The notes beneath the pieces are model-generated. The model was not told the origin of the DNA. It searched no databases and saw only the letters and a list, made by a program, of their open reading frames with translations. Shown here in pieces: positions 21,257 through 41,164 of a DNA stretch of 64,000 nucleotides (positions within the stretch are counted from its first letter, which is position 1; each line of letters opens with the position of its first letter). The DNA lies in the IMG/VR virus record IMGVR_UViG_3300025133_009407, positions 1-64,000 of that record; one strand, 5' to 3'. The stretch comes from a virus. The position numbers were made by a program, and so were the translations under genes.

Positions 21257-22213
21257 ATGAAAATAACTATTATTGGATTTAACTTTGGTCCCACACGAGC
21301 ATTTACAAATGGGCCAGGGATGTCTTTGCGAAACTTTGTACATTCGATACGAAAGAATTGCTTTCCATTTGTAGAGGTTTTTACAGCACTTCCTGTAGAG
21401 GAAGAGGTAGATGGAGTAAGATTCTTCTCAATAAGGGATCAAAAGAGGCTTCGTCTATCAATTCGTGATGCAGATGTTGTTCACCATTGGAGCGGTATTG
21501 ACGAAAGATTTGTGAATATTATAAAGTTCGCCGCAGCACTTGATAAGAAGATAATTTGCGGTCCCAATGTATTAGATACGGTTCAACTTAAAAAGGAAAA
21601 TACTTATCTGGAAGATTCAAAGATAAGTTTGTTTTTAACTGTAAACAATAGATTAAAATACCTTATCTCCAAACAGCATGTAATTCCTATTGATAAAATG
21701 AAGACTTTTATCGTTGGCCCGAGCCTGGACCTTTGGGCTCCAGCCGAGGATCAAGGAACCACCGGAATTTTATGGAAGGGGAACTGTAATCACAAGGTAA
21801 AGGATATAGAGTTTGCGCTTAAAGTGAGGGATGCTCTTCCTCAGTATAAATTTTTATTCTTAGGATATCCTGCCCCATATAAGTACCGCGAACACATTTC
21901 TGTTGCCAAAACGGCTAAACTGTATATAAATACTTCGATGTCAGAAACGAAATCCCAAACGCTAATGGAAAGTTGGGCATCTGGAGTTCCCTCTGTAACT
22001 CATCCAAAAATTTATATGCATGGCGAGAATTACAGAACAGGAATCATAACCACTAAAACTATCGAAAACTATGTTGAAGCGATTTCGGAAATTATGGAAG
22101 ACAAAACCTTGCGAGAGGGCTTGTCTGCTGGCGCAGTTTCTTACTGCAAAGAGAACTTCTCCGAAAGAACCATAAGAGATCGATATTTTCGCTTACTAAA
22201 AAGGATAAAGTGA
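21257..22213 (+). CDS. Glycosyltransferase, GT-B fold
   Basis: The 318-residue protein begins ITIIGFNFGPTRAFTNGPGM. Its N-domain is short, with DADVVHHWSGIDERFV. The C-domain has ILWKGNCNHKVKDIEFALKV and the donor region NTSMSETKSQTLMESWASGV, where the E-x7-E positions are SE...ME. The C-terminus (FSERTIRDRYFRLLKRI) is typical of GT4 enzymes. It starts a new transcript-like block after a 99-base gap that follows the minus-strand gene, and overlaps the next GT2 gene by TGATG. Confidence 0.8.
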   Translation: MKITIIGFNFGPTRAFTNGPGMSLRNFVHSIRKNCFPFVEVFTALPVEEEVDGVRFFSIRDQKRLRLSIRDADVVHHWSGIDERFVNIIKFAAALDKKIICGPNVLDTVQLKKENTYLEDSKISLFLTVNNRLKYLISKQHVIPIDKMKTFIVGPSLDLWAPAEDQGTTGILWKGNCNHKVKDIEFALKVRDALPQYKFLFLGYPAPYKYREHISVAKTAKLYINTSMSETKSQTLMESWASGVPSVTHPKIYMHGENYRTGIITTKTIENYVEAISEIMEDKTLREGLSAGAVSYCKENFSERTIRDRYFRLLKRIK

Positions 22214-22947
22214 TGCTTGTAGATATTATAATCCCAGCTTATAATCCCGGAGCCGATTTATTTGAAGCACTAAAGAGCTGTACCCAGCAAAAGTATAAGA
22301 AGTATACTGTTACTGTTATAGACGATAATTCATCAGAAGATGTAGCCAAGGTTGTTTCTAAATTTCCAGGATATAGATATATTAGAAATGATAAAAATCT
22401 TGGGCCATCCGGGGCGAGGAACGTCGGCATCAACAGTACAAGCGGGGATTTGATCAGCCTGCTAGATGCTGATGACCTAATGCATCCAGATAAGCTTCTT
22501 CTTTCGGTTAAGGAGTTTGCGGACGAAGAGGTTGGCCTTGTTTGCGGGAATTATCAGATTTTAGTAAATAGATCGAGGCTGATGAGGCCTTTTTACAAGA
22601 GGCCGATCACGATAAATCACTCAGCGCTGATGCGCCAAAACTTTGTAGCCTCCGGGTCAACAACCTTCCGGCGGTCTCTTATAGAAAGGATAGGAGGCTT
22701 TGATGAAAGATTTTGGATTTCCGAAGATTATGCATGTTGGGTTAGACTTTCAGAAATATGCAATATAAAATATATACATGAAGTATTATATTATTACTCT
22801 GTTTCTCCTGGAAATAGCTCTTTAACCCAGAGGAGTGATATCCAAAAGGATCATGACAAAAATATAAAAATAATCAGAAGAGAATCAAGAGAGAGGATAA
22901 AATGCCTAAGCGAAAAGAGAGAGTTGGAGAAAAACATGGGAGACTAA
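22213..22947 (+). CDS. Glycosyltransferase family 2
   Basis: ATG 22213 overlaps the previous stop. The 244-residue product has all GT2 landmarks: VDIIIPAYNPGADLFEALKS at the start, VIDDNSSEDVAKVV, NLGPSGARNVGI, the DxD metal site LLDADDLMHP and the acceptor loop GGFDERFWISEDYACWVRLS. It ends in a basic, helical tail that overlaps the next (homing endonuclease) gene by 46 bases. The tail beyond the GT2 fold may have been altered by that insertion. Confidence 0.92.
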   Translation: MLVDIIIPAYNPGADLFEALKSCTQQKYKKYTVTVIDDNSSEDVAKVVSKFPGYRYIRNDKNLGPSGARNVGINSTSGDLISLLDADDLMHPDKLLLSVKEFADEEVGLVCGNYQILVNRSRLMRPFYKRPITINHSALMRQNFVASGSTTFRRSLIERIGGFDERFWISEDYACWVRLSEICNIKYIHEVLYYYSVSPGNSSLTQRSDIQKDHDKNIKIIRRESRERIKCLSEKRELEKNMGD

Positions 22948-23867
22948 CGGTGACTGCCTTATCAGTCAGAACAAAAACTGGCGATGTATGGTGGAAATGT
23001 AAGTGTCAATGTGGCACATCAACAGATGTGAGAGCTGGACTATTGTCTAGAACAAAGTCTTGCGGGTGTGCTAAGCTGAAGCATAATTTATCTAATAAGA
23101 AATATGGAAAGTGGTCTATTTTAAATAAAAAAATAACTAAAGGTAGAGTTATACATTGGTTGGCAAGGTGTGAGTGTGGAAGAGAGAAATATGTTTCCTC
23201 ATATTCATTAAGAGCAGGAAAGAGTAAAGGCTGTGGATGTTCTGATATTAATCATTACTATTTCAACGCCATAAATACAGAGACGGCTTACTTGGCGGGA
23301 TTTATAGGCGCAGATGGAAATCTTGATGATAAAAGATTGAGGCTTAGAATAAATTTGTCCAATAAGGACTCAGAATATTTGAGAAAAATCAGTATTATTA
23401 TGGACGCAGAAGGTCTTTATAAATTGGCAAAAAAAACATGTCATTTGGAAATTTATTCTTCACAAATTTACAAAGATTTAGTTAACAACTTTGGGCTAAA
23501 GCCAAGAAAAACTTTTGATTTATTACCACCTCTTAACTTGAGCAAAGAACAGAGGATAGCTTATATGGCTGGATATATAGACGGTGACGGCTCCATTGTA
23601 GACTACCATAATGAAGCGGGGAAGTTGGCGATAAGAATAGTTGGAAATAAAAATATTCTTGAGTATTTTAAAAAAGTCTTAGAGTCCGATCTTAAGATGA
23701 AAATTGGAAAACTTCATCCTGAGAAAAGAAGTCCTGGCATTTATACCCTTGTCATAGGTGGCAAAAAATGTATAGATCTATATCACGAAGTACTAAAAGA
23801 TGTTCCACGCAAAATGTTAATGAAGAGAAAGTGGTTTAAACTTGATAAATATATGGGCACCAAATGA
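22902..23867 (+). CDS. LAGLIDADG homing endonuclease, free-standing
   Basis: The 321-residue protein has two copies of a phage zinc/DNA-binding module at about residues 7-55 and 66-112 (GRLTVTALS ... WWKCKCQCG ... TKSCGC, then GKWSIL ... WLARCECG ... SKGCGC). These modules are known as N-terminal parts of phage homing endonucleases. Two LAGLIDADG motifs follow (TAYLAGFIGADGN and IAYMAGYIDGDGS), enough for a monomeric enzyme. It sits between two glycosyltransferase genes, not inside an intron or intein, so it is a mobile free-standing endonuclease. Confidence 0.88.
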   Translation: MPKRKERVGEKHGRLTVTALSVRTKTGDVWWKCKCQCGTSTDVRAGLLSRTKSCGCAKLKHNLSNKKYGKWSILNKKITKGRVIHWLARCECGREKYVSSYSLRAGKSKGCGCSDINHYYFNAINTETAYLAGFIGADGNLDDKRLRLRINLSNKDSEYLRKISIIMDAEGLYKLAKKTCHLEIYSSQIYKDLVNNFGLKPRKTFDLLPPLNLSKEQRIAYMAGYIDGDGSIVDYHNEAGKLAIRIVGNKNILEYFKKVLESDLKMKIGKLHPEKRSPGIYTLVIGGKKCIDLYHEVLKDVPRKMLMKRKWFKLDKYMGTK

Positions 23868-26269
23868 GTCTCAAGTTAAAGAATAAAAATATTCTAATAA
23901 AGACCTACCTGTCTGAGTCGGGATTATTTTATTTAGGCAAATCTCTAGGAAAACACCTAGAGGCTTCTGGCAATAGGGTTTCGTATATCGCTAAGGAAAA
24001 GTACAAGAGAGATGATCGCGGATCATTCCGCCGTTTTTACCCAAAGCCTTACGATAAAAGTTCTTTGGATGGCCTCCGTATTATTAAGACGAACCAAAGA
24101 GATACTATTGAGGCACAAACGCTAAGAGCGGTTAAGGTTCACAAGATAGATGTTATAATATCTTTAGAAACCTTTATGATGAAAGCGCAATGGATAAAGA
24201 AGGTTAGAAAGGCTGGAGTCATCGTTTACGACGTTCCGATGCCAGAGTGGACCAATAAGCGATTTGTTGATAATAATTCGTATATTATCTTCAATAAGAT
24301 TCTTTGCCTGACAGATACTTCGCTGCAAGTATTTTCAAAATATAAAGCCGCAGAAAAATGTGAATGGGATTATGTAGACCGGGAACTCTTTGTGAAGAGG
24401 GTAGATAAGGCCTCTTTGCCGGAATTAACATTTTATCACCCTGGTTCGTTAAATCCGGGGTTTACCCAAAAAAATACAACTCAAGTTTTAAAAGCGTTCT
24501 CAGGTTTTATTGAGAAAACCAAAAGTAATTGTAAATTATTGGTTACAGGAAATCTTGATGCGACTCAATCAAATATAGCTAAAAAATGTAAGAAAATCAT
24601 ACTAATATCCGGAGTATTAGATAGGGAGAAAGTAGCATCTTTATACGATAAGTCGCATTGTTTGATAATCCCCTCTACGAGAGAAGGGCTTGGCCTTAGT
24701 TTCTATGAGGCCGCAGCTATGGACTGCGGGGTTATAACTACAGATGCTGATCCGATGAACAAACATACGGACTATCTTGCGAAAGTAATCTCGTATAATA
24801 AGAATGAAAGTCCTGTTCCATTTGCCATAACTTCTCCTGAAAACATTGAGGAACAGATAAGAAAATACTATGAGGATTTTAATATGAAAAAACAAAAAAC
24901 CCAAGAAGAAATTGAGCGTGAGAACAATAAGTTGCTAGAAGCCTTTGAGGCTCAAGACGAAGATGATCACGCCAAGCCCAGCGGTATGGACCCAGCGGTA
25001 TTAGCAAAATTAAAGAATAAAATGGACTCTACGGTGGCCAATACGGAGGAAGAAGTGGAAGTTGTTACACAGCGAAAAGTAAGTATAGAGCTTGCTGTAA
25101 TCGGAGTTGGACAGGCTGGCTCTAGAATAGCCGAAGTTTTTCATAAAAAAGGATATGACGTAGGTGTAATTAATACCTCGGAGCAGGATCTTGAGTTTAT
25201 CGATGTTACGCCTGGGCAGAAACTATTGCTCGACGGAAGCCTCGGTGGCACAGGAAAGGACCTTGATCTTGGAAGAGAAATCTTTGCAGACAGCATTGAT
25301 CAGATTGCCCCATTCGTAGAAAATGTGATCGACGGAAACAATATGGCTTATTTGGCAGTCTCCGGTGGTGGTGGTACGGGCTCAAGCTCCGTAGACACAC
25401 TGATTCCAATGCTATATGAAACTGGCCTTCCGGTTGGTGTCATATTTGTTCTGCCAAAAGCAACTGAGGATGCTCAGTCAAAGAGGAACTCAATAGAAAC
25501 TCTCTCTAGACTTGCAAAGTTAACTACTGATAATATGGTTTCGAATCTTATCGTTGTTGATAACGCTAGAATTGAACAGATTTACGCAAACTTAAGTCAG
25601 TCTAATTTCTGGGAGGCATCAAATAATGCAATCGTAGAACCGCTACATATCTTCAACTCATTAACTTCTACTGCATCTAGGTTTACATCATTAGATCCAA
25701 GTGATTTTGGAAGAATTATTTCATGTGGTGATTGTTCTATATATGGAGTGATGACTGTTGATGACTATATGGAAGAGACCGCGCTTGCCGAGGCGGTGAT
25801 TGAAAGCTTAAATTCTAATATGCTAGCATCTGGTTTCGATATCTCGCAGACACGCGCCGGTGGTGTGATTATAACAGGGCCAAGTGAAGTTCTAAATAGG
25901 ATTCCTGCATTAAATATTAACTATTGTTTCCATATGATTTCGGAACAGACCAATGGAGCATCAATTTATCAGGGCGTTTACGCTGTTGAGTCAGATGAGG
26001 ATTGTGTAAAGATTTATAGTTGGTTCGCTGGATTGGGTCTTCCGAAAGATCGAGTTGATAACCTGAGAAAAGAGAGCCAGCAGCATGCTGCAGTTGCGAC
26101 AGCCAAGGAAAAGAGTCGAGCATCGGTAATGACTCTTGATCTCGGGGATGACAAAGTGAATACCGTTGCGGAAGAGGTTACTAGAAAGATTCAAAAGAAG
26201 AAGTCTAGCTTCAGTCGGTTGCAGCGAGGATCGAGATCTTCCATTATAGATAAGAGAAGGAAGAAGTAA
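23864..26269 (+). CDS. Glycosyltransferase fused in frame to a tubulin/FtsZ-like GTPase
   Basis: One 801-codon frame holds two proteins. Residues 1 to about 338 are a GT4-like glycosyltransferase with the donor motif STREGLGLSFYEAAAMDCGV, paralogous to the gene at 16444. Residues 341-801 are a tubulin-superfamily GTPase: VIGVGQAGSRIAEVF near 412, LDGSLGGTGKDLDLG, and the nucleotide signature GGGGTGSSS at 501-509. The tail is very basic. ATG 24884 (residue 341) has TGAGGA seven bases before it, so the 461-residue tubulin can also be made alone. Phage tubulins (PhuZ, TubZ) form filaments that position DNA; a role here is inferred. A lost stop codon or a sequence error could explain the fusion. 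Confidence 0.85.
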   Translation: MSLKLKNKNILIKTYLSESGLFYLGKSLGKHLEASGNRVSYIAKEKYKRDDRGSFRRFYPKPYDKSSLDGLRIIKTNQRDTIEAQTLRAVKVHKIDVIISLETFMMKAQWIKKVRKAGVIVYDVPMPEWTNKRFVDNNSYIIFNKILCLTDTSLQVFSKYKAAEKCEWDYVDRELFVKRVDKASLPELTFYHPGSLNPGFTQKNTTQVLKAFSGFIEKTKSNCKLLVTGNLDATQSNIAKKCKKIILISGVLDREKVASLYDKSHCLIIPSTREGLGLSFYEAAAMDCGVITTDADPMNKHTDYLAKVISYNKNESPVPFAITSPENIEEQIRKYYEDFNMKKQKTQEEIERENNKLLEAFEAQDEDDHAKPSGMDPAVLAKLKNKMDSTVANTEEEVEVVTQRKVSIELAVIGVGQAGSRIAEVFHKKGYDVGVINTSEQDLEFIDVTPGQKLLLDGSLGGTGKDLDLGREIFADSIDQIAPFVENVIDGNNMAYLAVSGGGGTGSSSVDTLIPMLYETGLPVGVIFVLPKATEDAQSKRNSIETLSRLAKLTTDNMVSNLIVVDNARIEQIYANLSQSNFWEASNNAIVEPLHIFNSLTSTASRFTSLDPSDFGRIISCGDCSIYGVMTVDDYMEETALAEAVIESLNSNMLASGFDISQTRAGGVIITGPSEVLNRIPALNINYCFHMISEQTNGASIYQGVYAVESDEDCVKIYSWFAGLGLPKDRVDNLRKESQQHAAVATAKEKSRASVMTLDLGDDKVNTVAEEVTRKIQKKKSSFSRLQRGSRSSIIDKRRKK
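24871..24886 (+). promoter_or_regulatory. Internal ribosome-binding site and ATG for the tubulin-like part
   Basis: TGAGGA followed by TTTTAAT and ATG (24884) lies exactly at the boundary between the glycosyltransferase fold and the tubulin-like part, in frame. Spacing and strength match the best ribosome sites in the window. It suggests that the tubulin-like protein was, and may still be, translated as a separate 461-residue product. Confidence 0.6.
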
Positions 26270-26270
26270 G

Positions 26271-27194
26271 ATGGCAGTAGATAAGGTCTTCTACAATAAG
26301 TCTAGCGCAGACTCTCTTGGCTGGACTCCGGAGTGGTTTGGTGCAGATCATTTTGATGAGAAGTTAATCTCTAATGTTAAAAGATGGCAGAGAGCAAGAG
26401 GACTCCTTGCTGATGGACTTGTTGGTCCAACTACTTATAGGAGAATCTGGACTGATCGTGAAGCGGAGATCTCAAAACATAAACCATCAGAGAAATCTTT
26501 TGATAAACATAAAATTGAGAATGAAAAGATTAGTATTGTCCATAATGGAAAATTTATCCCCATAGATTGGGATAAGGTAATCTTGTGGAGCGAGTCTGGC
26601 GGCTTAAAAGCTGATGATGGAACTTATTATGATTATGCTGGAAAGCCAGACAGGGCTCCGACTTTTTTTGTAAATCATTGGGATGTATGTCTATCATCAG
26701 AATCTTGCGAAAAGGTTCTTAATAACAGAGGTATCTCAGTTCACTTCTCTATTGATAATGACGGAACAATTTATCAGCTCTTAGATACCCAACATGGAGC
26801 TTGGCATGCAGGGAACGGAAAGGCTAACAGAGCCTCAGTCGGTGTTGAAATAAGTAATGCTTATTATCTGAAGCACCAGTCTTGGTATGTGGATAATGGT
26901 TTTGGAGAAAGGCCGATACAAAGTGGGGCAGAAGTCCACGGCGGAACTCTAAAGGATTTTACTTGGTTCTATCCGGAACAGATAGCTGCCCTAAAGGCTC
27001 TTTGGGCTGCAATCAGTACTGGGCTAAACATACCTCTAGAATATCCTAAGAACGCCTCTGGAGAGTTGTGTACCACTATTCATGAAGAATGTAGGAAGGC
27101 CACCTTTAATGGGTTCTGCAATCATTATAATATAAGCAAGAGAAAGATAGATTGCGCCGGATTACTTCTTGACGAATTAATGGAAGACCTTTAG
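26271..27194 (+). CDS. N-acetylmuramoyl-L-alanine amidase endolysin with peptidoglycan-binding domain
   Basis: The 307-residue enzyme starts one base after the tubulin stop. An N-terminal PG_binding_1-like repeat (VKRWQRARGLLADGLVGP) is at about residues 35-62. The Amidase_2 (T7-lysozyme/PGRP) fold follows, with NHWDV, VHFSIDNDGTIYQLLDTQHG, AWHAGNGKANRASVGVEIS and the late zinc-site/active residues around IHEECRKATF. It cleaves the amide between muramic acid and the stem peptide and should act at lysis. No signal peptide is visible, so it needs a holin, which is not seen in the window. Confidence 0.9.
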   Translation: MAVDKVFYNKSSADSLGWTPEWFGADHFDEKLISNVKRWQRARGLLADGLVGPTTYRRIWTDREAEISKHKPSEKSFDKHKIENEKISIVHNGKFIPIDWDKVILWSESGGLKADDGTYYDYAGKPDRAPTFFVNHWDVCLSSESCEKVLNNRGISVHFSIDNDGTIYQLLDTQHGAWHAGNGKANRASVGVEISNAYYLKHQSWYVDNGFGERPIQSGAEVHGGTLKDFTWFYPEQIAALKALWAAISTGLNIPLEYPKNASGELCTTIHEECRKATFNGFCNHYNISKRKIDCAGLLLDELMEDL

Positions 27195-27258: not shown

Positions 27259-29796
27259 ATGATAGAAATTATATTAAATAATGTAAACTGCGAACTCCGG
27301 GGACAGCTGGATAGCGAAGTCGTTAAGAGCCTCGATAAGATCATGAGCTATGATCATCCGGGCTATATGTTTATGACTGGCGCTCGCGGAGGCTATGGTA
27401 ATGGCGGAGCTTCTGGCGGTTGGGACGGAAAGGTGAGGCTTCTAACTAAGAACGGAAAGTTTCCGATTGGACTTCTTAGCGTAACAGAATCTTTATTGAA
27501 AGAGAAAAAAATTCCATACAAAATTCGGGATCAAAGGCCAGAGTTGCACTATGGAAAAGAACTTCCTCTTATCAGCGATAAATTTGAGATAAGGCCTTAC
27601 CAGTTTGGAGCAGTAAAGAGGGCAACTGAGGCTGGCAGTGGAATTATGAAGATGGCCACCGGATGTCATGCAAAGGGCGCGGAAATACTCCTGTATGATG
27701 GTTCTGTGAAAAAGGCAGAAGACGTAGTCGTTGGAGATCTCCTAATGGGCCCGGATTCAAAGCCGAGAAGGGTTTTGGAACTTTGTCGAGGAAGAGATAG
27801 GATGGTAAAGATAAATCCCACAAAAGGGGATTCTTTTACGATTAATCAAGATCACATTTTGTCTCTAAAGAGAACTAAGCGCCGCACTGGCGACAAAAAA
27901 GCTGGAAATATTGAAGATGTAAAATTTTCAGATTGGGAAAGATTAACTCCTTATGGAAAGCATATAAGAAAACTCTTTAGAGTTGGTGTTGATTTTTCTA
28001 AAAAAGAATTATTAATGGATCCATATTTAATGGGTCTTTTGCTTGGAGACGGAAGCCTCCATTCGTCAATTGGAATTACCTCTGTAGATAAGGAGATAAT
28101 TTTTTACTGCAAAAATAAAGCAGAAGACTTAGGTTTGTATCTTAGAAAAAATGGTTTAACATATTATTTTACAACTGGGTTTAAAAATAAAGGAAAAAAT
28201 AAACTTATAAACATAGTAAGGAAAGAAGGACTGCACCAGACTGGGTCTGGAAATAAGTTTATTCCAAAAAATTATAAAACTTCGAATAGAGCTGATAGGC
28301 TTAGCTTACTTGCTGGTATTCTGGATACTGATGGATCTTATGACGGTAAGACATATGACTTTATATCTAAATCAAAAAAGCTATCAGAGGATGTTGCCTT
28401 CGTATCAAGGAGCCTTGGGCTTGCCGCTTATATTTCAAAGCAATATAAGGTGTGTACAAATAACGGGGTTGGAGGATATTATTATAGGGTTTGTATATCT
28501 GGCGAATTAAGCGAAATTCCATGCAAACTCCCCAGAAAGAAGGCTAATCCAAGGCGTCAGAAGAAAAGCGTTTTAGTAACCGGCTTTAAATATGAGGAAG
28601 CAGGAATTCAGGATTATTATGGATTTAAGGTAGACAAAGATCACAGATACCTAATGGGAGACTTTACTGTTACGCATAATTCTGGAAAAAGCTTTATTAT
28701 AGCAACCTTGGCGGCAAAATACAATATTCCAACCGTTGTTTATGTAATTGGAATTGAGCTTTTATATCAGATGAAAGAAACTATAGAAGCTGCATATGGA
28801 ATTCCATGCGGCATAGTTGGTGGTGGATTATGTGATACCTCAAAGCAGGTAACTATTATGACCATTTGGTCTGCGGCAGCCGCCTTTAACAAGAAGGCTA
28901 AGGTGTCAGACAATGACACAACGGGAGATTCCAAGAAGCATACAGATAAGTTAAATAAGGCTTCTGTAAGAAAGCGAGTTCAAGAAGCTCAGCTGTTTAT
29001 CTTCGATGAGTGTCAATATGCTGCGTCAGAAACTCTTCAGTTTCTACATCGGGCAAGCATATCTGCTAAGCATAGATTTCTTCTCTCTGGAACGCCGTGG
29101 AGAGATACGGGTGACGACATCTTAATCGAAGCGGTGTCTGGTCCAAGGATTTGCGATATCAGTGCAACGAAGCTAATCAAACAAGGGTACTTAGTTCCTC
29201 CGGATATTCATTTCTTAGACGTCCCAGTTATGAGGGGTGTCGGAAAGACGTATCACGATGTATATAAAGCATATGTTGTAGAGAATGAAGAGAGAAATGA
29301 TCTTATCTTTAAAGCGGCAAAGAAGCTTGTGGCTGCTGGAAAGAAAGTCTTAATCTTAGTTGTAAGAGTAAAGCATGGTCAACTTTTATATAAAAAGCTT
29401 AAGGATGAATTCTCTGTAAGTTTTCTAGATGGAGCAAAGAGTAGTAAGGTACGAATGAGTGCTATTCAAGATATGAAAGATGGAAAAACAGAGATCTTAA
29501 TTGCATCAAAAATCTTTGATCAAGGAATCGATATTCCTGAGCTTGATGCTTTGATCTTGGCGGGGTCTGGAAAGTCTTCCGGTAGAGCGTTGCAGAGAAT
29601 AGGGCGAGCAATAAGAAAGCACAAGGGAAAGAAGAAAGCAATAATTGTTGAGTTTTTTGACAACTGCAAGTATCTAAGAGATCATTCTGAGGCTAGGATA
29701 AAAGTTTATAGAAGTGAGCCTGCGTTTGTCCTTAAGATCCAAAAGAATAAGGCCTTAAAGACTTATCCCAAGCGGGCTCCAGTGAAGTGGTCTTAA
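27259..29796 (+). CDS. uvsW: UvsW-like superfamily 2 helicase interrupted by an intein
   Basis: The spliced protein would be 506 residues, close to T4 UvsW. An N-terminal domain with a GGWDGKVRLL-type motif precedes the helicase core. The core has Walker A ATG-SGKS (split by the intein), the DECQ box in FIFDECQYA, motif III FLLSGTPWR, and motifs V-VI ASKIFDQGIDIPELDA and GRALQRIGRAIRKHKG. UvsW unwinds branched DNA and R-loops and drives the switch from origin-dependent to recombination-dependent replication. A hairpin lies just upstream of the ATG. Confidence 0.9.
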   Translation: MIEIILNNVNCELRGQLDSEVVKSLDKIMSYDHPGYMFMTGARGGYGNGGASGGWDGKVRLLTKNGKFPIGLLSVTESLLKEKKIPYKIRDQRPELHYGKELPLISDKFEIRPYQFGAVKRATEAGSGIMKMATGCHAKGAEILLYDGSVKKAEDVVVGDLLMGPDSKPRRVLELCRGRDRMVKINPTKGDSFTINQDHILSLKRTKRRTGDKKAGNIEDVKFSDWERLTPYGKHIRKLFRVGVDFSKKELLMDPYLMGLLLGDGSLHSSIGITSVDKEIIFYCKNKAEDLGLYLRKNGLTYYFTTGFKNKGKNKLINIVRKEGLHQTGSGNKFIPKNYKTSNRADRLSLLAGILDTDGSYDGKTYDFISKSKKLSEDVAFVSRSLGLAAYISKQYKVCTNNGVGGYYYRVCISGELSEIPCKLPRKKANPRRQKKSVLVTGFKYEEAGIQDYYGFKVDKDHRYLMGDFTVTHNSGKSFIIATLAAKYNIPTVVYVIGIELLYQMKETIEAAYGIPCGIVGGGLCDTSKQVTIMTIWSAAAAFNKKAKVSDNDTTGDSKKHTDKLNKASVRKRVQEAQLFIFDECQYAASETLQFLHRASISAKHRFLLSGTPWRDTGDDILIEAVSGPRICDISATKLIKQGYLVPPDIHFLDVPVMRGVGKTYHDVYKAYVVENEERNDLIFKAAKKLVAAGKKVLILVVRVKHGQLLYKKLKDEFSVSFLDGAKSSKVRMSAIQDMKDGKTEILIASKIFDQGIDIPELDALILAGSGKSSGRALQRIGRAIRKHKGKKKAIIVEFFDNCKYLRDHSEARIKVYRSEPAFVLKIQKNKALKTYPKRAPVKWS
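27664..28680 (+). mobile_element. Intein in UvsW, class 1, with LAGLIDADG endonuclease (339 residues)
   Basis: The insertion begins at Cys136 (CHAKGAEILLYDGSVKKAED, block A) and ends FTVTHN before Ser+1, with block B at FTINQDHIL. Two LAGLIDADG motifs are visible: LMGLLLGDGSLH and LLAGILDTDGSYD. It splits the Walker A motif between Gly and Ser (MATG / SGKSF), so the helicase cannot bind ATP until splicing. The frame is open throughout, so splicing must be at the protein level. All catalytic positions (Cys1, His-Asn, Ser+1) are present, so it is probably active. Confidence 0.92.
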
Positions 29797-33587: not shown

Positions 33588-33875
33588 ATGGCTATTTACA
33601 ATTTCAAATGTAATACATGCTCTTCGGTAGTGATATTAAATATTTCTATAAAGAAGTTTGAGCAGCAAAGCCTGGACTGCGCCTTTGACGAAATGATTTG
33701 CGAGAATTGTGAGAATTTGTCTGAATTTACTCGAATCTTCAACATGTCTTCTAGTAAGATAAAAAGAGATAACGAAGAGATAATGAGACAAATCAAAGAA
33801 GATTCTAGAAAAATCGTTCGAAGTATTCAAAGCGGAAATACAAAAACTATGAGAGATATTTACGGAGAAGAATGA
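33588..33875 (+). CDS. FmdB-like zinc-ribbon protein
   Basis: The N-terminus IYNFKCNTCSSVV and the later MICENCENLSEFTRIF form a two-CxxC zinc ribbon with the phage/FmdB spacing. A helical basic tail (SSKIKRDNEEIMRQIKEDSR) follows. The 95-residue gene directly precedes prkA by a four-base overlap. FmdB-like proteins have no settled function; regulation of the downstream genes is possible. Confidence 0.75.
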   Translation: MAIYNFKCNTCSSVVILNISIKKFEQQSLDCAFDEMICENCENLSEFTRIFNMSSSKIKRDNEEIMRQIKEDSRKIVRSIQSGNTKTMRDIYGEE

Positions 33876-35794
33876 TGCCGGGTAAGAAAAAGGTAAGCCT
33901 CCTAGAGGCATTAAGCAGCCATGTTGATGCAGTAAGCGCCCTAGAGTGGGAAGGAACCCTGGCAGACTATGTTGATATAATTACTAAAGCTCCCAGCCTA
34001 CATCGTGGAGCCCACCAGAGGGTTCTTGATATGATTGATGCAGCTGGAGTAGAGCGAGATAGTGACGGAGTGGCCACAAAATATCACTTCTTCGATCAAG
34101 ATCTATTCGGGATCGAAGAGTCTATCTCTGAAATAATGTCATACCTAAAGGCTGCAGCGGCTGGAAGTGAAGTATCTAGGCGAATTCTTCTACTCTATGG
34201 TCCCACTTCCTCAGGAAAATCTCAGCTTGCTGTTCTTCTAAAGAAAGGGTTGGAATCTTACTCAAAGACTGAAGCCGGAAAGACTTACTGCTTATCTGAA
34301 TCCCCTATGTACGAAGATCCTCTTTGTGCCATTCCAATGGAGTTACGCCCCAGATTTGAGGAAGAGTATGGAATTAAGATAGATGGCTTATTGAGCCCAA
34401 TTATGGAGCTTTTGCTGAAAGAGACGTATGGCGGAGACTTTTTGAAGCTTCCGGTTAAGCGCTTTTTCTTCTCAGAGCAGTCTAGAGTTGGAGTAGGAAC
34501 CTTTGTTCCGTCTGATAAAAAGAGCCAGGATATCTCTGAGCTAGTTGGATCGATGGACCTTAGCAAGATTGGAGAGTACGGTTCAGAATCTGATCCGAGA
34601 GCATATCGATTTGATGGTGAGCTTAACGTTGCAAATAGAGGCATCATGGAGTTTGTTGAGATGCTCAAAGTAGATCAGAAGTTCCTATACGTTCTTCTTA
34701 CTTTGGCTCAGGAAAAGAATATTAAGACTGGCCGCTTCCCGTTTATTTATGCAGATGAGTTCTTGCTGGCACACAGTAATGAAACAGAGTACAAGAGATT
34801 CTTGGCGAAAGACGAGATGGAAGCGCTCCACGACAGAATTATTGTTGTGAAGGTTCCTTATAATCTAAACGTAGCTGATGAGGTTAAGATCTATGAGAAG
34901 TTGATCGGTCAGGCGAGATTTGGGGATACCCATATTGCTCCATACACTCTATATTGCGCTGCTATGTTTGCGGTGCTATCACGTCTAAAAGATTCTAAGC
35001 ACGAGGGGCTTACTAACTTAAGCAAGATGAAGCTTTATAACGGAGAAGACATCGAAGGATTCTCCAAGGTTGATATGCCAATCTTAAAGAAAGAATTTGA
35101 AGAGGAAGGCATGACCGGTGTATCTCCGAGATATATCATAAACCGAATATCTTCGATGTTAGCACAGGACAATGCTGATTGTGTTACTCCAATTGATGTA
35201 ATCAGAGCCATTAGAGATGGCTTCAGCACTAATCCAAAGCTAGACAAAAAAGAAATTCATAGGCTTGAAAATATTTTAACCTCAGTTATCGAAGAGTATA
35301 GCAAGATTGCTAGGAACGAAGTGCAGAAAGCATTCTTCGTTAACTTTGAGCAGGAAGTTCAGAATCTTCTCTCAAACTACATGGATCATGTTGGAGCCTT
35401 CCTTGATAATACTAACACTCAGAATGAATGGGGCGAGCCTAGTGAGCCCAATGAGAGATTGATGCGATCAATTGAAGAAAAGGTTGGTATTTCAGAGACT
35501 GGCAAGAAGTCATTCCGTCAGGAAATATATCGAAAGATGCTCAAGTCTGCTTCTGCAGGCGGCAGAGATTATAATTACAAAGATCACGTCAAACTAAGAG
35601 AAGCTCTAGAGAAGCAGCTGTTTGACGAGAGACAGGATGTAATTAGACTGACCGTTAGTACCCGAAACCCGGATGAAAATGAACTTAAGAAGGTTAACGT
35701 TGTAATTCAGACCTTGTGTGACAAATATGGTTACAGTGCCAAGAGTGCAAACAAGCTGCTAAGATATGTAAGCTCATTGATGGCCAGAAACTAA
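33872..35794 (+). CDS. prkA: PrkA-family serine protein kinase (AAA+ type)
   Basis: The 640-residue protein matches PrkA/YeaG in length and order: an AAA+ core with YGPTSSGKSQLAVLLKKGLE, then SRVGVGTFVPSDKKSQDIS and SESDPRAYRFDGELNVANRG, and FIYADEFLLAHSNETEYKRF, followed by the kinase-like C-terminal region. PrkA phosphorylates serine/threonine on few known targets and acts in starvation and sporulation in bacteria. The start can be ATG 33872 or ATG 33875. It is coupled by one base spacing to yeaH, as in the bacterial yeaG-yeaH pair. Confidence 0.95.
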   Translation: MMPGKKKVSLLEALSSHVDAVSALEWEGTLADYVDIITKAPSLHRGAHQRVLDMIDAAGVERDSDGVATKYHFFDQDLFGIEESISEIMSYLKAAAAGSEVSRRILLLYGPTSSGKSQLAVLLKKGLESYSKTEAGKTYCLSESPMYEDPLCAIPMELRPRFEEEYGIKIDGLLSPIMELLLKETYGGDFLKLPVKRFFFSEQSRVGVGTFVPSDKKSQDISELVGSMDLSKIGEYGSESDPRAYRFDGELNVANRGIMEFVEMLKVDQKFLYVLLTLAQEKNIKTGRFPFIYADEFLLAHSNETEYKRFLAKDEMEALHDRIIVVKVPYNLNVADEVKIYEKLIGQARFGDTHIAPYTLYCAAMFAVLSRLKDSKHEGLTNLSKMKLYNGEDIEGFSKVDMPILKKEFEEEGMTGVSPRYIINRISSMLAQDNADCVTPIDVIRAIRDGFSTNPKLDKKEIHRLENILTSVIEEYSKIARNEVQKAFFVNFEQEVQNLLSNYMDHVGAFLDNTNTQNEWGEPSEPNERLMRSIEEKVGISETGKKSFRQEIYRKMLKSASAGGRDYNYKDHVKLREALEKQLFDERQDVIRLTVSTRNPDENELKKVNVVIQTLCDKYGYSAKSANKLLRYVSSLMARN

Positions 35795-35795
35795 A

Positions 35796-36980
35796 ATGTC
35801 TAAGGCATCAAAAGCCGAGCAGAGCCTGTCAGATATCTGGAAGCTCAAACAGAGGGGCAAGAGAGATTCTGACAGGCAGAAGAAGCTTGTCAATGATGCC
35901 ATTAGGAAGAATGGAAAGGATTTAATTACAGAATATAATATCATTCAATCAGATGGTGATAAGAAGATTAAGATCCCGATTCGTTTCTTGGATCGTTATA
36001 AATTTAAGTACGGAAAGCTCAAGGATAAGTCTGGAACAGGCCAGGGACTTGATGTAAAGCCGGGCGATAAATATAAAATAAGAAGCGGAAAGAAAAAGAA
36101 AGCCCCAGGGGCTGGAAAAGCAGGCGATGAAGAAGGCGAGATAGCTTTTGAAGCAGAAGTCTCTATTGATGAGCTTGTAGATATTTTGCTGGATGAGTTG
36201 AACCTGCCGTGGATGGAGCCGAATAAAAGCTCAGCCATCGAGGTAGAGACTGAAGATCTATCCTCTATAGAGAAGAAGGGCATCTATCCTAATTTAGATC
36301 TGAAAAAGACATTAATCCAAAATCTTAAAAGAAATGCTGCAAAAGGCAACGCAAAGATTGGTGGCATTAACGAGAATGACCTAAGGTACAGAACGTGGGA
36401 GACTAACAAGGAGTATCATTCTAACGCAGCTATATACCTAATGATGGACCGCAGCGGCTCAATGAGTGCGGAGAAGAGATATATAGCTAAGAGTTTCTAC
36501 TTTTGGATGGTTCAGTTCTTAAAGAGAAGATATAAGAATATCAAATTAGTCTTTATCGCTCATGACACTAAAGCTTATAAGGTTGAGGAGAAGGAGTTCT
36601 TTGCTGTCACAAGTGGCGGCGGCACAAAGTGTAGCTCTGCATTTAAAATGGCATACGAGCACATGGTAGAGCATCATCCGATTGAGACTTGGAATAACTA
36701 TGTTTTCGAATTTTCAGACGGAGATAATTGGGGTGACGACAATCTGCTCGTACTAGATTATATAGCTAAAATGCTACCACTAGTCAGGGCAATAGGCTAC
36801 GGAGAAATTACTCCAGAAAATGAATTCGCATGGAATGTTGAGGAGAATCGCCTATCGGCTTTGCTGGAAAAAACTGTTAAGCGAACACGATTTGTCTCTA
36901 TCAAGATCTCGTCTAGAGATCAAGTTTTTGATGCACTAAAAATGTTTTTTAATATTGACGGGAAAGCAGTTAAGGCTTAA
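35796..36980 (+). CDS. YeaH/YhbH-family (DUF444) von Willebrand A domain protein
   Basis: The 394-residue protein has the DUF444 layout: a basic N-terminus, the low-complexity GKKKKAPGAGKAGDEEGE linker, then IYLMMDRSGSMSAEKRYIAK, a VWA domain with the complete MIDAS DxSxS. FAVTSGGGTKCSSAFKMAYE and EFSDGDNWGDDN follow. In bacteria it is co-inherited with PrkA and SpoVR and may be their partner or substrate. The next gene (a homing endonuclease) starts nine bases downstream. Confidence 0.92.
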   Translation: MSKASKAEQSLSDIWKLKQRGKRDSDRQKKLVNDAIRKNGKDLITEYNIIQSDGDKKIKIPIRFLDRYKFKYGKLKDKSGTGQGLDVKPGDKYKIRSGKKKKAPGAGKAGDEEGEIAFEAEVSIDELVDILLDELNLPWMEPNKSSAIEVETEDLSSIEKKGIYPNLDLKKTLIQNLKRNAAKGNAKIGGINENDLRYRTWETNKEYHSNAAIYLMMDRSGSMSAEKRYIAKSFYFWMVQFLKRRYKNIKLVFIAHDTKAYKVEEKEFFAVTSGGGTKCSSAFKMAYEHMVEHHPIETWNNYVFEFSDGDNWGDDNLLVLDYIAKMLPLVRAIGYGEITPENEFAWNVEENRLSALLEKTVKRTRFVSIKISSRDQVFDALKMFFNIDGKAVKA

Positions 36981-36989
36981 AAATAGAAG

Positions 36990-38570
36990 ATGGAGCGCCT
37001 AATAAATAAAGAAGAACTCATAAACCTTCTTGACAAGAAAATATCTGTTCGAGCTATGGCAAAAGAGGTGGGGTGTTCTCATACTACTTTAATCAAGCGT
37101 GTCAAAGAGCATGGCCTTTCTAATTATGGAAGAGAATATAGAGATAAAGATATACTTTCTAAATTATATTTAAAAGAAAATAAAACAATATCTGAAATAG
37201 CCTCAATTTATGGCGCATCTCAAATAACTATTTCAAAGTATATAAAAAAGTTTGAGTTGAAAAAAACAATAGAGGCAAAGGCAAGTGCCACTCTTACAAA
37301 GAGAAAGGCAACATGCCAAGACCTATATGGTGTTGATAACGTCATGCAGCTTGAGAAGACAAAGCAGGCTGCAAAAAATACTTCGATAGACAGATACGGA
37401 GCCGAACATTATTCTAAAACAGAAGAATGGAGAACAAAGGCGGTAGCTAAAAATTTAAAGAAATATGGTGTCAAATGGACTCTTGACAGGGGAGATGTTA
37501 AGGAGAAAATAAGCACAACATTACTAAGGAAATATGGGGTTACCAATCCATCATTCATTAAAGGTATTTCGGATAAGAAAAGAGAAACTCTATTAAAAAA
37601 TCATTCGGGCTCAAAAGGAATCGTTCACAATATTGAGGGATATACTTCAAGACAGATTTCTGATCTGTATAATATTCCTTACTCAAGTGTTAATTACTTT
37701 ATAAACAAATATCAAGTAGATACCCTGAAGTCCCTGAAGGAGATAGCAGATAAGTCTTCGTCAGGTCAAAATGGTTTAGAGAAATTTGCGGAAAAAGAGT
37801 TTAAACTATCATTTTATGACAAACAAGCACCTGGGGTCGGTGGATATAGACCCGACTTTCTTGTAAAAGACGGAATATACATGAATGCCGATGGACTATA
37901 TTGGCATAGTGAACTTAGAAATAATGATAAATGGTATCATTTTAATCTTAGAAAGAAATTTGAAGAAAATAATTATAGAATTTTACAATTTCGTGAAAAT
38001 GAAATTTTGAAAAAAACAGAATTAGTTAAGTCAATGTTGTCTCATTTATCAGGGAATACTCCTAATAAGATTCATGGAAGAAAAACGGTTTTTGAGAAGC
38101 TGAGCATAAAGCAGGCCAGAAGTTTTCTAGATAGAAATCATATTAAAGGATTTATGAACTCAAATCATTATGGCCTAATGCTTGGAGGAGCGCCGGTTGC
38201 CATTATGTCCGTAAGACTATTTGGATCGACTATCAAAGTCGATAGATTTTGTACAAAAATGTCAACCGTAGTTAACGGAGGGTTTTCGAAGCTTCTTAAG
38301 AACATATCAGAGCTTTACGAGTTTGACAAGATTGATTATTGGGTAGACCTAAGATACGGTTCTGGAAGTTTTCTTAAAAATTATGGTTTTAAAATAAAAA
38401 AAGAAACACTTGGGTGGGAGTGGACTGACTTGAAAAATACATATAATCGCCTCAAGTGTAGGGCAAATATGGACAATAGAATGCTTAGTCAGGCTGATCA
38501 CGCATCTGAATTAAAACTAGTCAAAATTTATGATGCAGGCCAAAGGCTATGGATAAAGGAGCTGAGATGA
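36990..38570 (+). CDS. Free-standing homing endonuclease, Vsr-like (PD-(D/E)XK) with HTH repeats
   Basis: The 526-residue protein begins with two helix-turn-helix modules (ISVRAMAKEVGCSHTTLIKR and KTISEIASIYGASQITISKY). Tandem motifs with KYGVKWTLDR and RKYGVTNPSFI follow, known from phage homing enzymes. A Vsr/EDxHD-like nuclease core has YRPDFLVKDGIYMNADGLYW and HFNLRKKFEENNYRILQFRE. The C-terminus has a GNAT-like look (GLMLGGAPVAIMSVRLFG). It lies between yeaH and spoVR, so it has invaded the conserved trio. Its end overlaps spoVR. Confidence 0.75.
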   Translation: MERLINKEELINLLDKKISVRAMAKEVGCSHTTLIKRVKEHGLSNYGREYRDKDILSKLYLKENKTISEIASIYGASQITISKYIKKFELKKTIEAKASATLTKRKATCQDLYGVDNVMQLEKTKQAAKNTSIDRYGAEHYSKTEEWRTKAVAKNLKKYGVKWTLDRGDVKEKISTTLLRKYGVTNPSFIKGISDKKRETLLKNHSGSKGIVHNIEGYTSRQISDLYNIPYSSVNYFINKYQVDTLKSLKEIADKSSSGQNGLEKFAEKEFKLSFYDKQAPGVGGYRPDFLVKDGIYMNADGLYWHSELRNNDKWYHFNLRKKFEENNYRILQFRENEILKKTELVKSMLSHLSGNTPNKIHGRKTVFEKLSIKQARSFLDRNHIKGFMNSNHYGLMLGGAPVAIMSVRLFGSTIKVDRFCTKMSTVVNGGFSKLLKNISELYEFDKIDYWVDLRYGSGSFLKNYGFKIKKETLGWEWTDLKNTYNRLKCRANMDNRMLSQADHASELKLVKIYDAGQRLWIKELR

Positions 38571-41164
38571 GCGACATCCTAAGAGAAAGAATACAGATTT
38601 TAGAAAAAGAGGCTCTCGATATGGGCCTCGACTATTATCCTATAAATTATGAGGTTGTTCCTCAAGAAACTATGCTTGAGGTTATAAGCTATGGCCTTCC
38701 GACTAGAGCGAGGCACTGGAGTTACGGTCAGTCTTACGAGTATCAGAAAATGCAAGGAGAGATGGGCTTTTCTAAAGTTTATGAAGTCGTACTAAACAAC
38801 GATCCGTCTTATGCATTTTTGCTAGATACAAATTCAGATATAGCAAATACGATGGTTGCAGCACATGTAATTGGGCACGTCCATTTCTTTAAAAACAATC
38901 ACCTGTTCAAGATGACTGATAACAAAATGGTTTATCACGCGGCAGAAAGAGCGCAGAGGATCGAGGGATATATAGAGAAATATGGCCTAGAGGTAGTTGA
39001 GAGGGTCATGGATATAGGCTTCGCCCTCGATAAGCATATCGATTGGCATAAGGGAGTTTACAGAAAGCCTTATGCACATGAGGACAAGTACTTCAAAGAT
39101 ATCAAGAAGGATGAGTTTTCAGACGTTCTTGATAAGGATTCCATGTCTAAGGTTGAAGTTGTTCCCAAAAACAAGTTCCCTCCACAGCCTGAGTTTGATT
39201 TAATTTGGTTCTTAATACATTACTCGAAGTCACTAGAGCCCTGGCAGGTTGATGTTCTTGACATTATTAGACAAGAGTCTTATTATTTCTACCCTCAATA
39301 TATGACAAAGATTATGAACGAAGGATTCGCCTGTATTACGGGAGATTCAATGGTCTTTACAGAGACCGGAATGATCCCGATGAAAGATGTTGTGTCTGGA
39401 GATTCAAAGTTTGTTGATGATAACGAAATGCCCAGAGGGATCATGGCAAAGCAGATTATTGGGAAGAAGCGCTGCATAGAAATAGAGACAAGCAGGGGAT
39501 ACTCTATTCGTGGGGCAGATAATCACAGATTATTATGTGATGGAGATTGGAGTAGATTAGATGAAATGAGCCTTGGCCATAAGGTTGATCTCTCAATTGG
39601 AAGCGGCATATGGAATGAAGAATATTACAAAGTCAATTATGAGCCAAGAGAATTAAAGATTACGTTGAAAGATATGTGCGCCGAGGCCGGAGTATCTGTA
39701 ACTACTTTATGGAGAAGAAGGCAGGGTAAAAATGTTAGAAAGAAAGAGATAATTGATGCTCTTTTGGCGCGTTATAAGTCTGAAAAATCTGACGACACCA
39801 AGGTTAGTGCTATTGGCACAAAAAAAAGAAAGGATATAGTATTTCCAGAAATTGTAAATGAAGATATGGGAAGATTTTTGGGATTGTTAACTGGAGACGG
39901 GCATATTTCCCGAAAAGGAAGAAGCTTTGGATTTACATCTGGAGATAAAAACCTTGCTGATGAGTTTTCTAATTTAACCAAAGAGTTATTTGGATTATCA
40001 TGCAAAATACGCAAAGATGAAAAAAGATATCGTGTGAATTTTTATTCAGAATCCGTATCAGACTTTTTGGTAGATTTCTTCGGATGTACGACTGGAGTTT
40101 CGGCAAGGAAAAAGAACATATCTGATGTAATCTTGAGATCACCGAAAAGTGTTATAGCAGCCTATATACGGGGCTTATTCGATGCTGATGGATGCGCTCA
40201 TAAGGGTGGGGTTACTTTTGTAACTGCAAGCGAGGGGATGGCAAAGAATATTCAAATAATATTATCTAATTTCAATATATTGTGCAGCAGAAGGCTTCGC
40301 GGAGACGAAACATATGCTATAACCATTCATGGATTATCAGCAAAAAGATATAGTGAGGAAATTGGGTTCGGCCTTAAGCGCAAGCAGGATAGGTTAGGTG
40401 ATTATATTTCTGACAGAAAATGGTGGAAAAAAGAAAAATATTATGATAAAGTTCTTAAGATTAAGGAGTCATATGAGACTGTATATGACATATCGGTAGA
40501 GGAATCGCATAGATATGCTGCTAATGGATTTATAAATCATAATAGCTTTATTCACGCCGAACTTATGTACACAACCGACTGTATAGATTACTCTGAGCAT
40601 TTAGACTTCTGTAAGATTCATGAAAAAGTTGTTCAGCCCGGTGGAAACAAACTTAAGATCAACCCATATTTCTTAGGATTTTGCATACTTGAAGAGGTTA
40701 GAAAGAAATATAACAAGCTAAACGAAGACGGCGAATCTGAAATCGATGGGTTCCAGAAAATTTATGAAATCGTCAGGGATGAGGATGACATTTCCTTCAT
40801 CAGAAATTATCTAACAAAAGAGTTGGCGGAAGAGCTAAAATTGTTTACATATGTTGGGATAAAGATGTCCTCCGGTGATGAGGCGATCCACGTGATCGGA
40901 ACCGAGTTGGATTTGCTTAAAGAATCTTTAGTAAAGGATCTTTATAACTATATGGCTCCACTGATCTGTGTTACAGGAATAGAAGATGGAGTCTTACAGT
41001 TAGAGCATAGAAGCGGGAATATTGGAACGCTAGACTATAAGCATCTAGAGATCACATTAGAGTATATGTACGAAGCTTGGGGTGGCCCAGTAAATATAGC
41101 GACTGTAGACTCAGAAGGCAAGCCTGTTCATTTTACTCATGATGAGTTAGGCTTCAGTGGATAG
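38567..41164 (+). CDS. spoVR: SpoVR-family protein interrupted by an intein
   Basis: ATG 38567 follows AAGGAG. Without the intein the protein is 461 residues, like SpoVR/YcgB. Hallmarks include NYEVVPQETMLEVISYGLPT, ARHWSYGQSYEYQK, HVIGHVHFFKNN (metal-like His), WQVDVLDIIRQESYYFYPQY and KIMNEGFA-SFIHAELM, the signature region. SpoVR is linked to spore cortex formation in Bacillus and to stress response with PrkA and YeaH elsewhere; the biochemical activity is unknown. It is unusual as an intein host. Confidence 0.93.
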   Translation: MSDILRERIQILEKEALDMGLDYYPINYEVVPQETMLEVISYGLPTRARHWSYGQSYEYQKMQGEMGFSKVYEVVLNNDPSYAFLLDTNSDIANTMVAAHVIGHVHFFKNNHLFKMTDNKMVYHAAERAQRIEGYIEKYGLEVVERVMDIGFALDKHIDWHKGVYRKPYAHEDKYFKDIKKDEFSDVLDKDSMSKVEVVPKNKFPPQPEFDLIWFLIHYSKSLEPWQVDVLDIIRQESYYFYPQYMTKIMNEGFACITGDSMVFTETGMIPMKDVVSGDSKFVDDNEMPRGIMAKQIIGKKRCIEIETSRGYSIRGADNHRLLCDGDWSRLDEMSLGHKVDLSIGSGIWNEEYYKVNYEPRELKITLKDMCAEAGVSVTTLWRRRQGKNVRKKEIIDALLARYKSEKSDDTKVSAIGTKKRKDIVFPEIVNEDMGRFLGLLTGDGHISRKGRSFGFTSGDKNLADEFSNLTKELFGLSCKIRKDEKRYRVNFYSESVSDFLVDFFGCTTGVSARKKNISDVILRSPKSVIAAYIRGLFDADGCAHKGGVTFVTASEGMAKNIQIILSNFNILCSRRLRGDETYAITIHGLSAKRYSEEIGFGLKRKQDRLGDYISDRKWWKKEKYYDKVLKIKESYETVYDISVEESHRYAANGFINHNSFIHAELMYTTDCIDYSEHLDFCKIHEKVVQPGGNKLKINPYFLGFCILEEVRKKYNKLNEDGESEIDGFQKIYEIVRDEDDISFIRNYLTKELAEELKLFTYVGIKMSSGDEAIHVIGTELDLLKESLVKDLYNYMAPLICVTGIEDGVLQLEHRSGNIGTLDYKHLEITLEYMYEAWGGPVNIATVDSEGKPVHFTHDELGFSG
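39332..40543 (+). mobile_element. Intein in SpoVR, class 1, with LAGLIDADG endonuclease (404 residues)
   Basis: It begins at Cys256 (CITGDSMVFTETGMIPMKDV) and ends in YAANGFINHN before Ser+1. Block B is SIRGADNHRLL, and block F is VYDISVEESHRYAANG. An extra HTH-like segment (KITLKDMCAEAGVSVTTLWR) precedes the endonuclease motifs FLGLLTGDGHIS and YIRGLFDADGCA. The insertion point is inside the most conserved SpoVR signature (NEGFA / SFIH). All splicing residues are present. Confidence 0.92.

Follow-up and report, generated by a model that had tools for sequence, protein, structure and literature searches.

A glycosyltransferase gene read in frame into a TubZ-like tubulin gene, with a conserved internal start, in a group of large phages

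In one virus record, a single open reading frame appears to encode a sugar transferase followed directly by a member of the tubulin/FtsZ superfamily. Is this join a genuine and conserved gene, which products does it specify, and what might a glycosyltransferase do on a tubulin? The stretch of DNA analysed here (the window, 64,000 nucleotides) makes up most of the 67,231-base record IMGVR_UViG_3300025133_009407. The initial annotation had described a GT4-like domain running without a stop into a tubulin carrying GGGGTGSSS, and this description holds for the whole reading frame (Table 1). In Pfam searches the 801-aa protein matches Glycos_transf_1 (E 2e-13, residues 201-339) and Tubulin (E 1.3e-11, residues 410-574), with bit scores above the cut-offs both for PF00534 (Glycos_transf_1; 51.2 against a curated 26.4) and for PF00091 (Tubulin GTPase domain; 47.8 against 33). 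Over the 461-aa form, TubZ-like_C is also recognised (E 1.8e-7; PF22453, 31.7 bits against a cut-off of 26). The EX7E motif of the glycosyltransferase is intact, and its two glutamates (E274 and E282) are invariant across 10 lineages. AlphaFold models the 801-aa protein as two confident domains (up to residue 343, and from 407 to about 746) separated by a low-confidence linker and followed by a disordered tail (747-801). A linker built for the fusion is rejected: unfused tubulins have the same N-terminal extension, within which the motif IxxENxxLxxAF is common to fused and unfused proteins.

Table 1. Features of the fused gene and of its neighbours, in window positions (aa, amino acids; GT, glycosyltransferase).
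Feature	Position	Strand	Remarks
GT4-like glycosyltransferase, same cluster	21257-22213	+	PF00534 E 4.8e-5, below curated cut-off
GT2 glycosyltransferase, same cluster	22210-22947	+	PF00535 E 4.3e-29
Homing-endonuclease-like ORF	22902-23867	+	LAGLIDADG_3, HNH-type PHROGs; between GT2 gene and fused gene, overlaps GT start by 4 nt
Fused GT-tubulin gene	23864-26269	+	801 aa; stop-free ORF; same fusion in L001/L002, L003/L008, L004/L005, L006, L007, L016
GT4-like glycosyltransferase part, residues 1-340	23864-24883	+	PF00534 E 1.4e-13 when run alone; alternation of helices and strands resembling GT-B; pLDDT high up to residue 343
EX7E motif (E274...E282) of the glycosyltransferase	24683-24709	+	invariant in GT alignments
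Shine-Dalgarno TGAGGA for internal start	24871-24876	+	encoded within GT tail (..YYEDF)
Internal ORF, free TubZ-like tubulin	24884-26269	+	461 aa; in-frame ATG at 24884-24886; kept in 7/7 fused lineages; tubulin start in overlapping lineages
Flexible linker, the tubulin's own N-terminal extension	24893-25081	+	low pLDDT at residues 361-375 and 386-406; also in unfused relatives
Tubulin/FtsZ-fold GTPase core	25082-26101	+	TubZ 4ei7: Foldseek E 1.7e-21, VIA Z 38.6, rmsd 2.9
Nucleotide-binding G-box GGGGTGSSS	25364-25390	+	GGGG invariant in tubulin alignment
T7 loop LDPSDF, catalytic Asp positions for neighbouring subunit	25691-25708	+	D271 and D274 invariant; aligns with TubZ T7 stretch
Disordered, strongly basic C-terminal tail	26102-26266	+	net +12 over last 30 aa (window protein)
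Amidase endolysin with peptidoglycan-binding domain, next gene	26271-27194	+	PF01510 E 3.8e-18
UvsW-like helicase with intein	27259-29796	+	PF00271, UvsW_N, Hom_end_hint and LAGLIDADG domains; marks conserved downstream synteny

A set of large phages, most of them uncultured, shares the stop-free fusion. When the tubulin part was used as a protein query against IMG/VR, nine contigs matched, and eight of these have the glycosyltransferase running into the tubulin without interruption. Profile searches added one fused lineage (L016) and, with the window, the fused set amounts to ten contigs in seven distinct lineages. The search in related phages that the initial annotation had proposed therefore yielded nine further contigs, representing six further lineages. 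Identity to the window among these is 41-76% for the glycosyltransferase part and 67-88% for the tubulin. For three of the fused lineages, moreover, two metagenomes each yielded an assembly, and the two agree with 0 mismatches across more than 13 kb. Since the fusion recurs in diverged lineages and in identical double assemblies, a missed stop codon or an assembly error, readings to which almost no credence can be given, are rejected. No sign of a stop near 24880, which had been named as the observation that would overturn the fusion, was found.

Relatives are not always organised as two separate genes either, since 7 of the 14 lineages that carry this glycosyltransferase-tubulin pair are fused. 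In six others (L009, L033, L044=L045, L046, L048 and L049) the same two genes overlap out of frame, in two relative frames, with the glycosyltransferase stop falling within the first codons of the tubulin gene. In the remaining lineage, L020, they are separate, 91 nt apart, and the tubulin has its own strong ribosome site. By its gene order the pair is one adjacent, mostly overlapping unit. Shine-Dalgarno sequence and ATG lie 9 or 12 nt apart where the genes are fused and 10, 11 or 13 nt apart where they overlap, so that a small indel in this interval separates the two forms. In L004 a length change of exactly 3 nt at the join preserves the frame. A lost stop codon had been offered as the simple alternative. 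A separate stop is indeed absent, but an indel at the overlap is a more probable cause of its loss than a point mutation, because the unfused relatives overlap out of frame. The stop-free gap between Shine-Dalgarno sequence and ATG was also considered as proof of selection for fusion and rejected, two or three codons being too small a target.

In phylogenetic trees the seven fused lineages and L009/L033 form one well-supported group (100/99), within which the fused set may or may not be a single clade (AU p 0.27 for the tubulin and 0.12 for the glycosyltransferase). The topology fits a single fusion, either reversed once or with L009/L033 branching as its sister. These two lineages lie within the fused set or beside it and yet are unfused, so the fusion is dispensable. 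The L033 contig is binned as an Actinomycetota MAG (WLOB01000045.1), which may be a hint of the host or reflect a mis-binned phage contig.

An in-frame ATG with a TGAGGA site at the join had been pointed out from the outset, and its spacing is the usual one. In the window, the predicted pairing with the anti-Shine-Dalgarno sequence is -6.1 kcal/mol at this internal site against -2.4 kcal/mol at the glycosyltransferase's own start. The in-frame ATG and a site of -6.0 to -6.3 kcal/mol are present in all seven fused lineages, and the same site, where the tubulin starts in the overlapping relatives, scores -6.0 to -8.1 kcal/mol. The glycosyltransferase start in the other fused lineages ranges from -2.5 to -6.2 kcal/mol; the homing-endonuclease-like ORF which precedes it in the window may explain why its ribosome site is weak there compared with that of L001. 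Of 80 comparable pairs in the seven codons before the internal methionine, 74 are synonymously identical, where the codon use of the individual lineages predicts 47.6. This stretch ranks 1 of 602 windows taken across the whole fused gene (P ~4e-4); synonymous sites elsewhere in the gene are near saturation. In most lineages the join region has little or no structure; it is most structured in L004. A promoter scan gave sites above the shuffle mean, with nothing specific at the internal start. Together these observations provide good support for the view that the join DNA also acts as an initiation site in the fused lineages, where free tubulin would still be made. As the Shine-Dalgarno sequence and ATG are kept and the codons at the join conserved, internal initiation is very probably real. 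The initial annotation had suggested that 801- and 461-residue forms could both be made, and one gene giving these two products, the fusion and a free tubulin, now appears likely.

Which tubulin is this? By its G-box and the acidic residues of its T7 loop it is a GTPase of the tubulin/FtsZ superfamily, for which GTP-dependent polymerisation is predicted. Structure prediction of the tubulin part, also proposed in the initial annotation, gave a folded domain (a single-sequence model of the free tubulin, with pLDDT 42, was left out). Judged by sequence and by modelled fold, it is TubZ-like: its best match on both counts is TubZ (plasmid RepX/TubZ of Bacillus and TubZ of phage c-st; 4ei7, phmmer E 3e-18), with Z 38.6 and an rmsd of 2.9 across 344 residues; CetZ and FtsZ rank lower. 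It differs from TubZ in its sequence (~20-23% identity), in an N-terminal extension of ~60 aa and, in seven lineages, in the N-terminal glycosyltransferase. No centromere iterons were seen at 22.8-27.5 kb and, on inspection, no small HTH gene of the kind expected for TubR was noticed adjoining the tubulin in this incomplete record.

The resemblance to PhuZ of nucleus-forming phages (Chimalliviridae) lies in its being a single phage-encoded tubulin in large genomes (one per record in eight of eight records), and phrog_4733 is a weak profile match (E 5e-6). PhuZ is known for an acidic C-terminal tail. The window tubulin, in contrast, is closer in fold to TubZ and strongly basic at its C-terminus, and the last 30 aa carry a net charge of +6 to +14 in all 15 sequences. 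A single-sequence search with the chimallin phiKZ gp54 matched only itself and none of eight records, which are partial. Identity with chimallivirus PhuZ is disfavoured by the lack of a chimallin match and by the basic tail. A search of the large contigs for T4-type capsid families gave no match, the controls likewise being without match, and terminase matches are weak. Within the phage record collection, Bacillus phage G alone among the annotated isolate phages has a relative that can be recognised, the FtsZ-like gp138 (25% identity), a stand-alone gene with neither an adjacent glycosyltransferase nor an N-terminal extension. A protein recorded as 'FtsZ' of an uncultured Caudovirales phage in BFVD (A0A6J5RW92) is a tubulin of the same kind, with 40% identity over 442 columns; unlike the fusion, it is a stand-alone protein of 452 aa.

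The N-terminal part, by its domain and motif, is of GT4 (Glycos_transf_1) type and a predicted sugar transferase. It shares Glycos_transf_1 and EX7E with GT4 enzymes in the PDB (GlgA, BshA and others), to which its similarity is weak (E ~1e-6 to 4e-4) and from which it differs in carrying a C-terminal tubulin. Substitution patterns indicate that it is under purifying selection while fused: between L007 and L016 dN is 0.22 and dS 1.8 for the glycosyltransferase part (ratio 0.12), with dN/dS of 0.02 for the tubulin core, and between the window and L001 dN is 0.16 for the glycosyltransferase part with dS saturated.

The neighbourhood offers a further indication of function. Besides the two glycosyltransferase genes listed in Table 1, ORFs resembling a GDP-mannose dehydratase and a cupin, as judged from sequence, lie upstream of the fused gene. 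L020, L033 and L047 have a helicase-like ORF after the tubulin, and the order glycosyltransferases-tubulin-helicase recurs in L033 and L020. In a search of 2.9 million viral contigs, full-length homologues of this glycosyltransferase occur on 16 contigs, always directly 5' of the tubulin, and the next matches below this set are partial-domain (E 4e-8 and weaker). A wide scan also revealed a large sister set of tubulins, mostly ~36-48% identical, on contigs of up to 480 kb; none of those examined is fused to or adjoins this glycosyltransferase. A sugar-nucleotide dehydratase-like gene nevertheless precedes the tubulin in most sister loci. The ORF just upstream of the tubulin belongs to one family throughout a cluster of 70 loci (L047, L061-L164), in which some contigs are counted more than once and a few lie outside the sister set, and this family is an NDP-sugar dehydratase/epimerase in the two members tested (PF16363, E 5.8e-61). 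Because sister tubulins border sugar genes even in the absence of this glycosyltransferase, the tubulin-glycan neighbourhood is, on comparative grounds, older than the fusion. Such gene-neighbour links support a tubulin-glycan function without proving it, since synteny alone could explain them.

Several other genes of these phages seem to carry inserts. A sister TubZ-like tubulin on a 361-kb contig (L091:2357-5134) is interrupted in its T1 loop (GSGQAG|SRLAE) by ~470 aa that start CIDG.., end ..HN/S and include LAGLIDADG-like segments; the insert in this phage tubulin appears to be an intein. A dehydratase ORF of 662 aa (L141:1756-3741) matches its family only from about residue 424, which suggests an insert, possibly an intein, in its N-terminal half. 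In the window, a terminase-like ORF of 871 aa (38549-41164) has an endonuclease-like middle (phrog_4645) and the best matched stretch of a ribonucleotide-reductase ORF of 927 aa (42166-44949) begins at about residue 394; both may contain an intein or other insert. Of the adjacent genes at 33872-36980 of the window, one matches a YeaG/PrkA-like serine kinase, annotated as such in Thermus and Enterobacter phages and found also in uncultured huge phages of 595-642 kb, and another matches a phage family with a link to sporulation proteins.

What can be read directly from the DNA is that the fusion exists and is conserved, that its internal start is conserved too and that both enzymes have their motifs. 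We infer that both products are made, that they co-polymerise and that the glycosyltransferase acts on the filament. Translation from 23864 would give the 801-aa protein, in which a flexible arm of ~60 aa links a GT4-type glycosyltransferase to a TubZ-like tubulin, and re-initiation or internal initiation at 24884 would give the free 461-aa tubulin. The latter probably builds a filament into which the fusion would co-assemble as a minority subunit, so that the glycosyltransferase is carried on the phage's own filament. This reading, one phage gene with two overlapping products of which the free one builds the filament and the other brings the enzyme to it, is given a probability of about 0.55. 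The enzyme is probably the last of the surface-glycan cluster just upstream, working near the membrane or at virion assembly, and this cluster suggests that its target may be a phage-directed surface or virion glycan.

The main rival explanation is that the fusion is a tolerated by-product. What mattered would have been the coupling of the two genes, with the tubulin ribosome site inside the glycosyltransferase tail; an indel at the overlap would then have put them in frame with loss of the glycosyltransferase stop, the C-terminal tubulin being neutral and the filament working without the fusion. This is a serious possibility, although it seems distinctly less probable than a functional fusion. 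Overlap, in two relative frames, is the state of six lineages, the frame is set only by the 9-13 nt from Shine-Dalgarno sequence to ATG, which places fusion and separation one small indel apart, and L009 and L033 are unfused inside the same supported clade. Against it, the frame has been kept in seven lineages across saturated synonymous divergence, including the 3-nt change of L004. Moreover, every completed glycosyltransferase chain carries a tubulin, because the fused enzyme has no stop of its own, and neutrality would require that a tubulin on every glycosyltransferase, or a bulky glycosyltransferase on such tubulins, be free of cost.

Two other readings are improbable. The fused subunit could regulate the filament rather than act on sugar, glycosyltransferase-bearing caps, spacers or anchors (for example through binding of membrane or glycan carriers) setting its length or position. 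The anatomy of the gene would be the same, the glycosyltransferase sits on a conserved N-terminal extension intrinsic to the tubulin, and the ribosome-site strengths in the window favour free tubulin over fusion; a mere anchor, however, would have no need of the fully conserved catalytic motif. The 801-aa product could also be a polyprotein that a protease of phage or host cuts within the linker, releasing separate glycosyltransferase and tubulin. In favour of this, the linker is of low confidence and variable, but the same linker is found in unfused tubulins that need no cleavage, and no conserved fusion-specific motif was seen; cleavage ranks slightly below even the regulatory reading.

In papers on jumbo phages, tubulins figure either as the PhuZ spindle proteins of phages that form a nucleus or as TubZ partition proteins, and none of the three describes a fusion of a glycosyltransferase to a tubulin (PMC7824862, PMC7950403, PMC13282480). 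In agreement with the initial annotation, which knew of no described protein of this type, a search of the open literature found no description of such a fusion. The components belong to known families; what is new is their fusion, best called a variant of phage tubulin. If the proposed function is true, this would be, to our knowledge, the first case in which a catalytic transferase is naturally fused to a filament of the tubulin superfamily. It can be suggested tentatively, at somewhat less than even odds, that these phages build a filament with a sugar-transfer enzyme covalently built in, a two-product gene decorating it with glycosyltransferase at a set ratio and thereby positioning glycan synthesis in the infected cell. 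The conserved covalent link to glycan synthesis, together with the deeper neighbour link, would give a TubZ-like filament a specific and testable job, that of placing a sugar transferase, in phage tubulins outside both nucleus-forming phages and low-copy partition systems. For decorated filaments, the conserved internal start would be a design supplied by nature, and the lineages in their three states (fused, overlapping and separate) provide a ready comparison set for the way in which gene fusions arise from overlapping genes.
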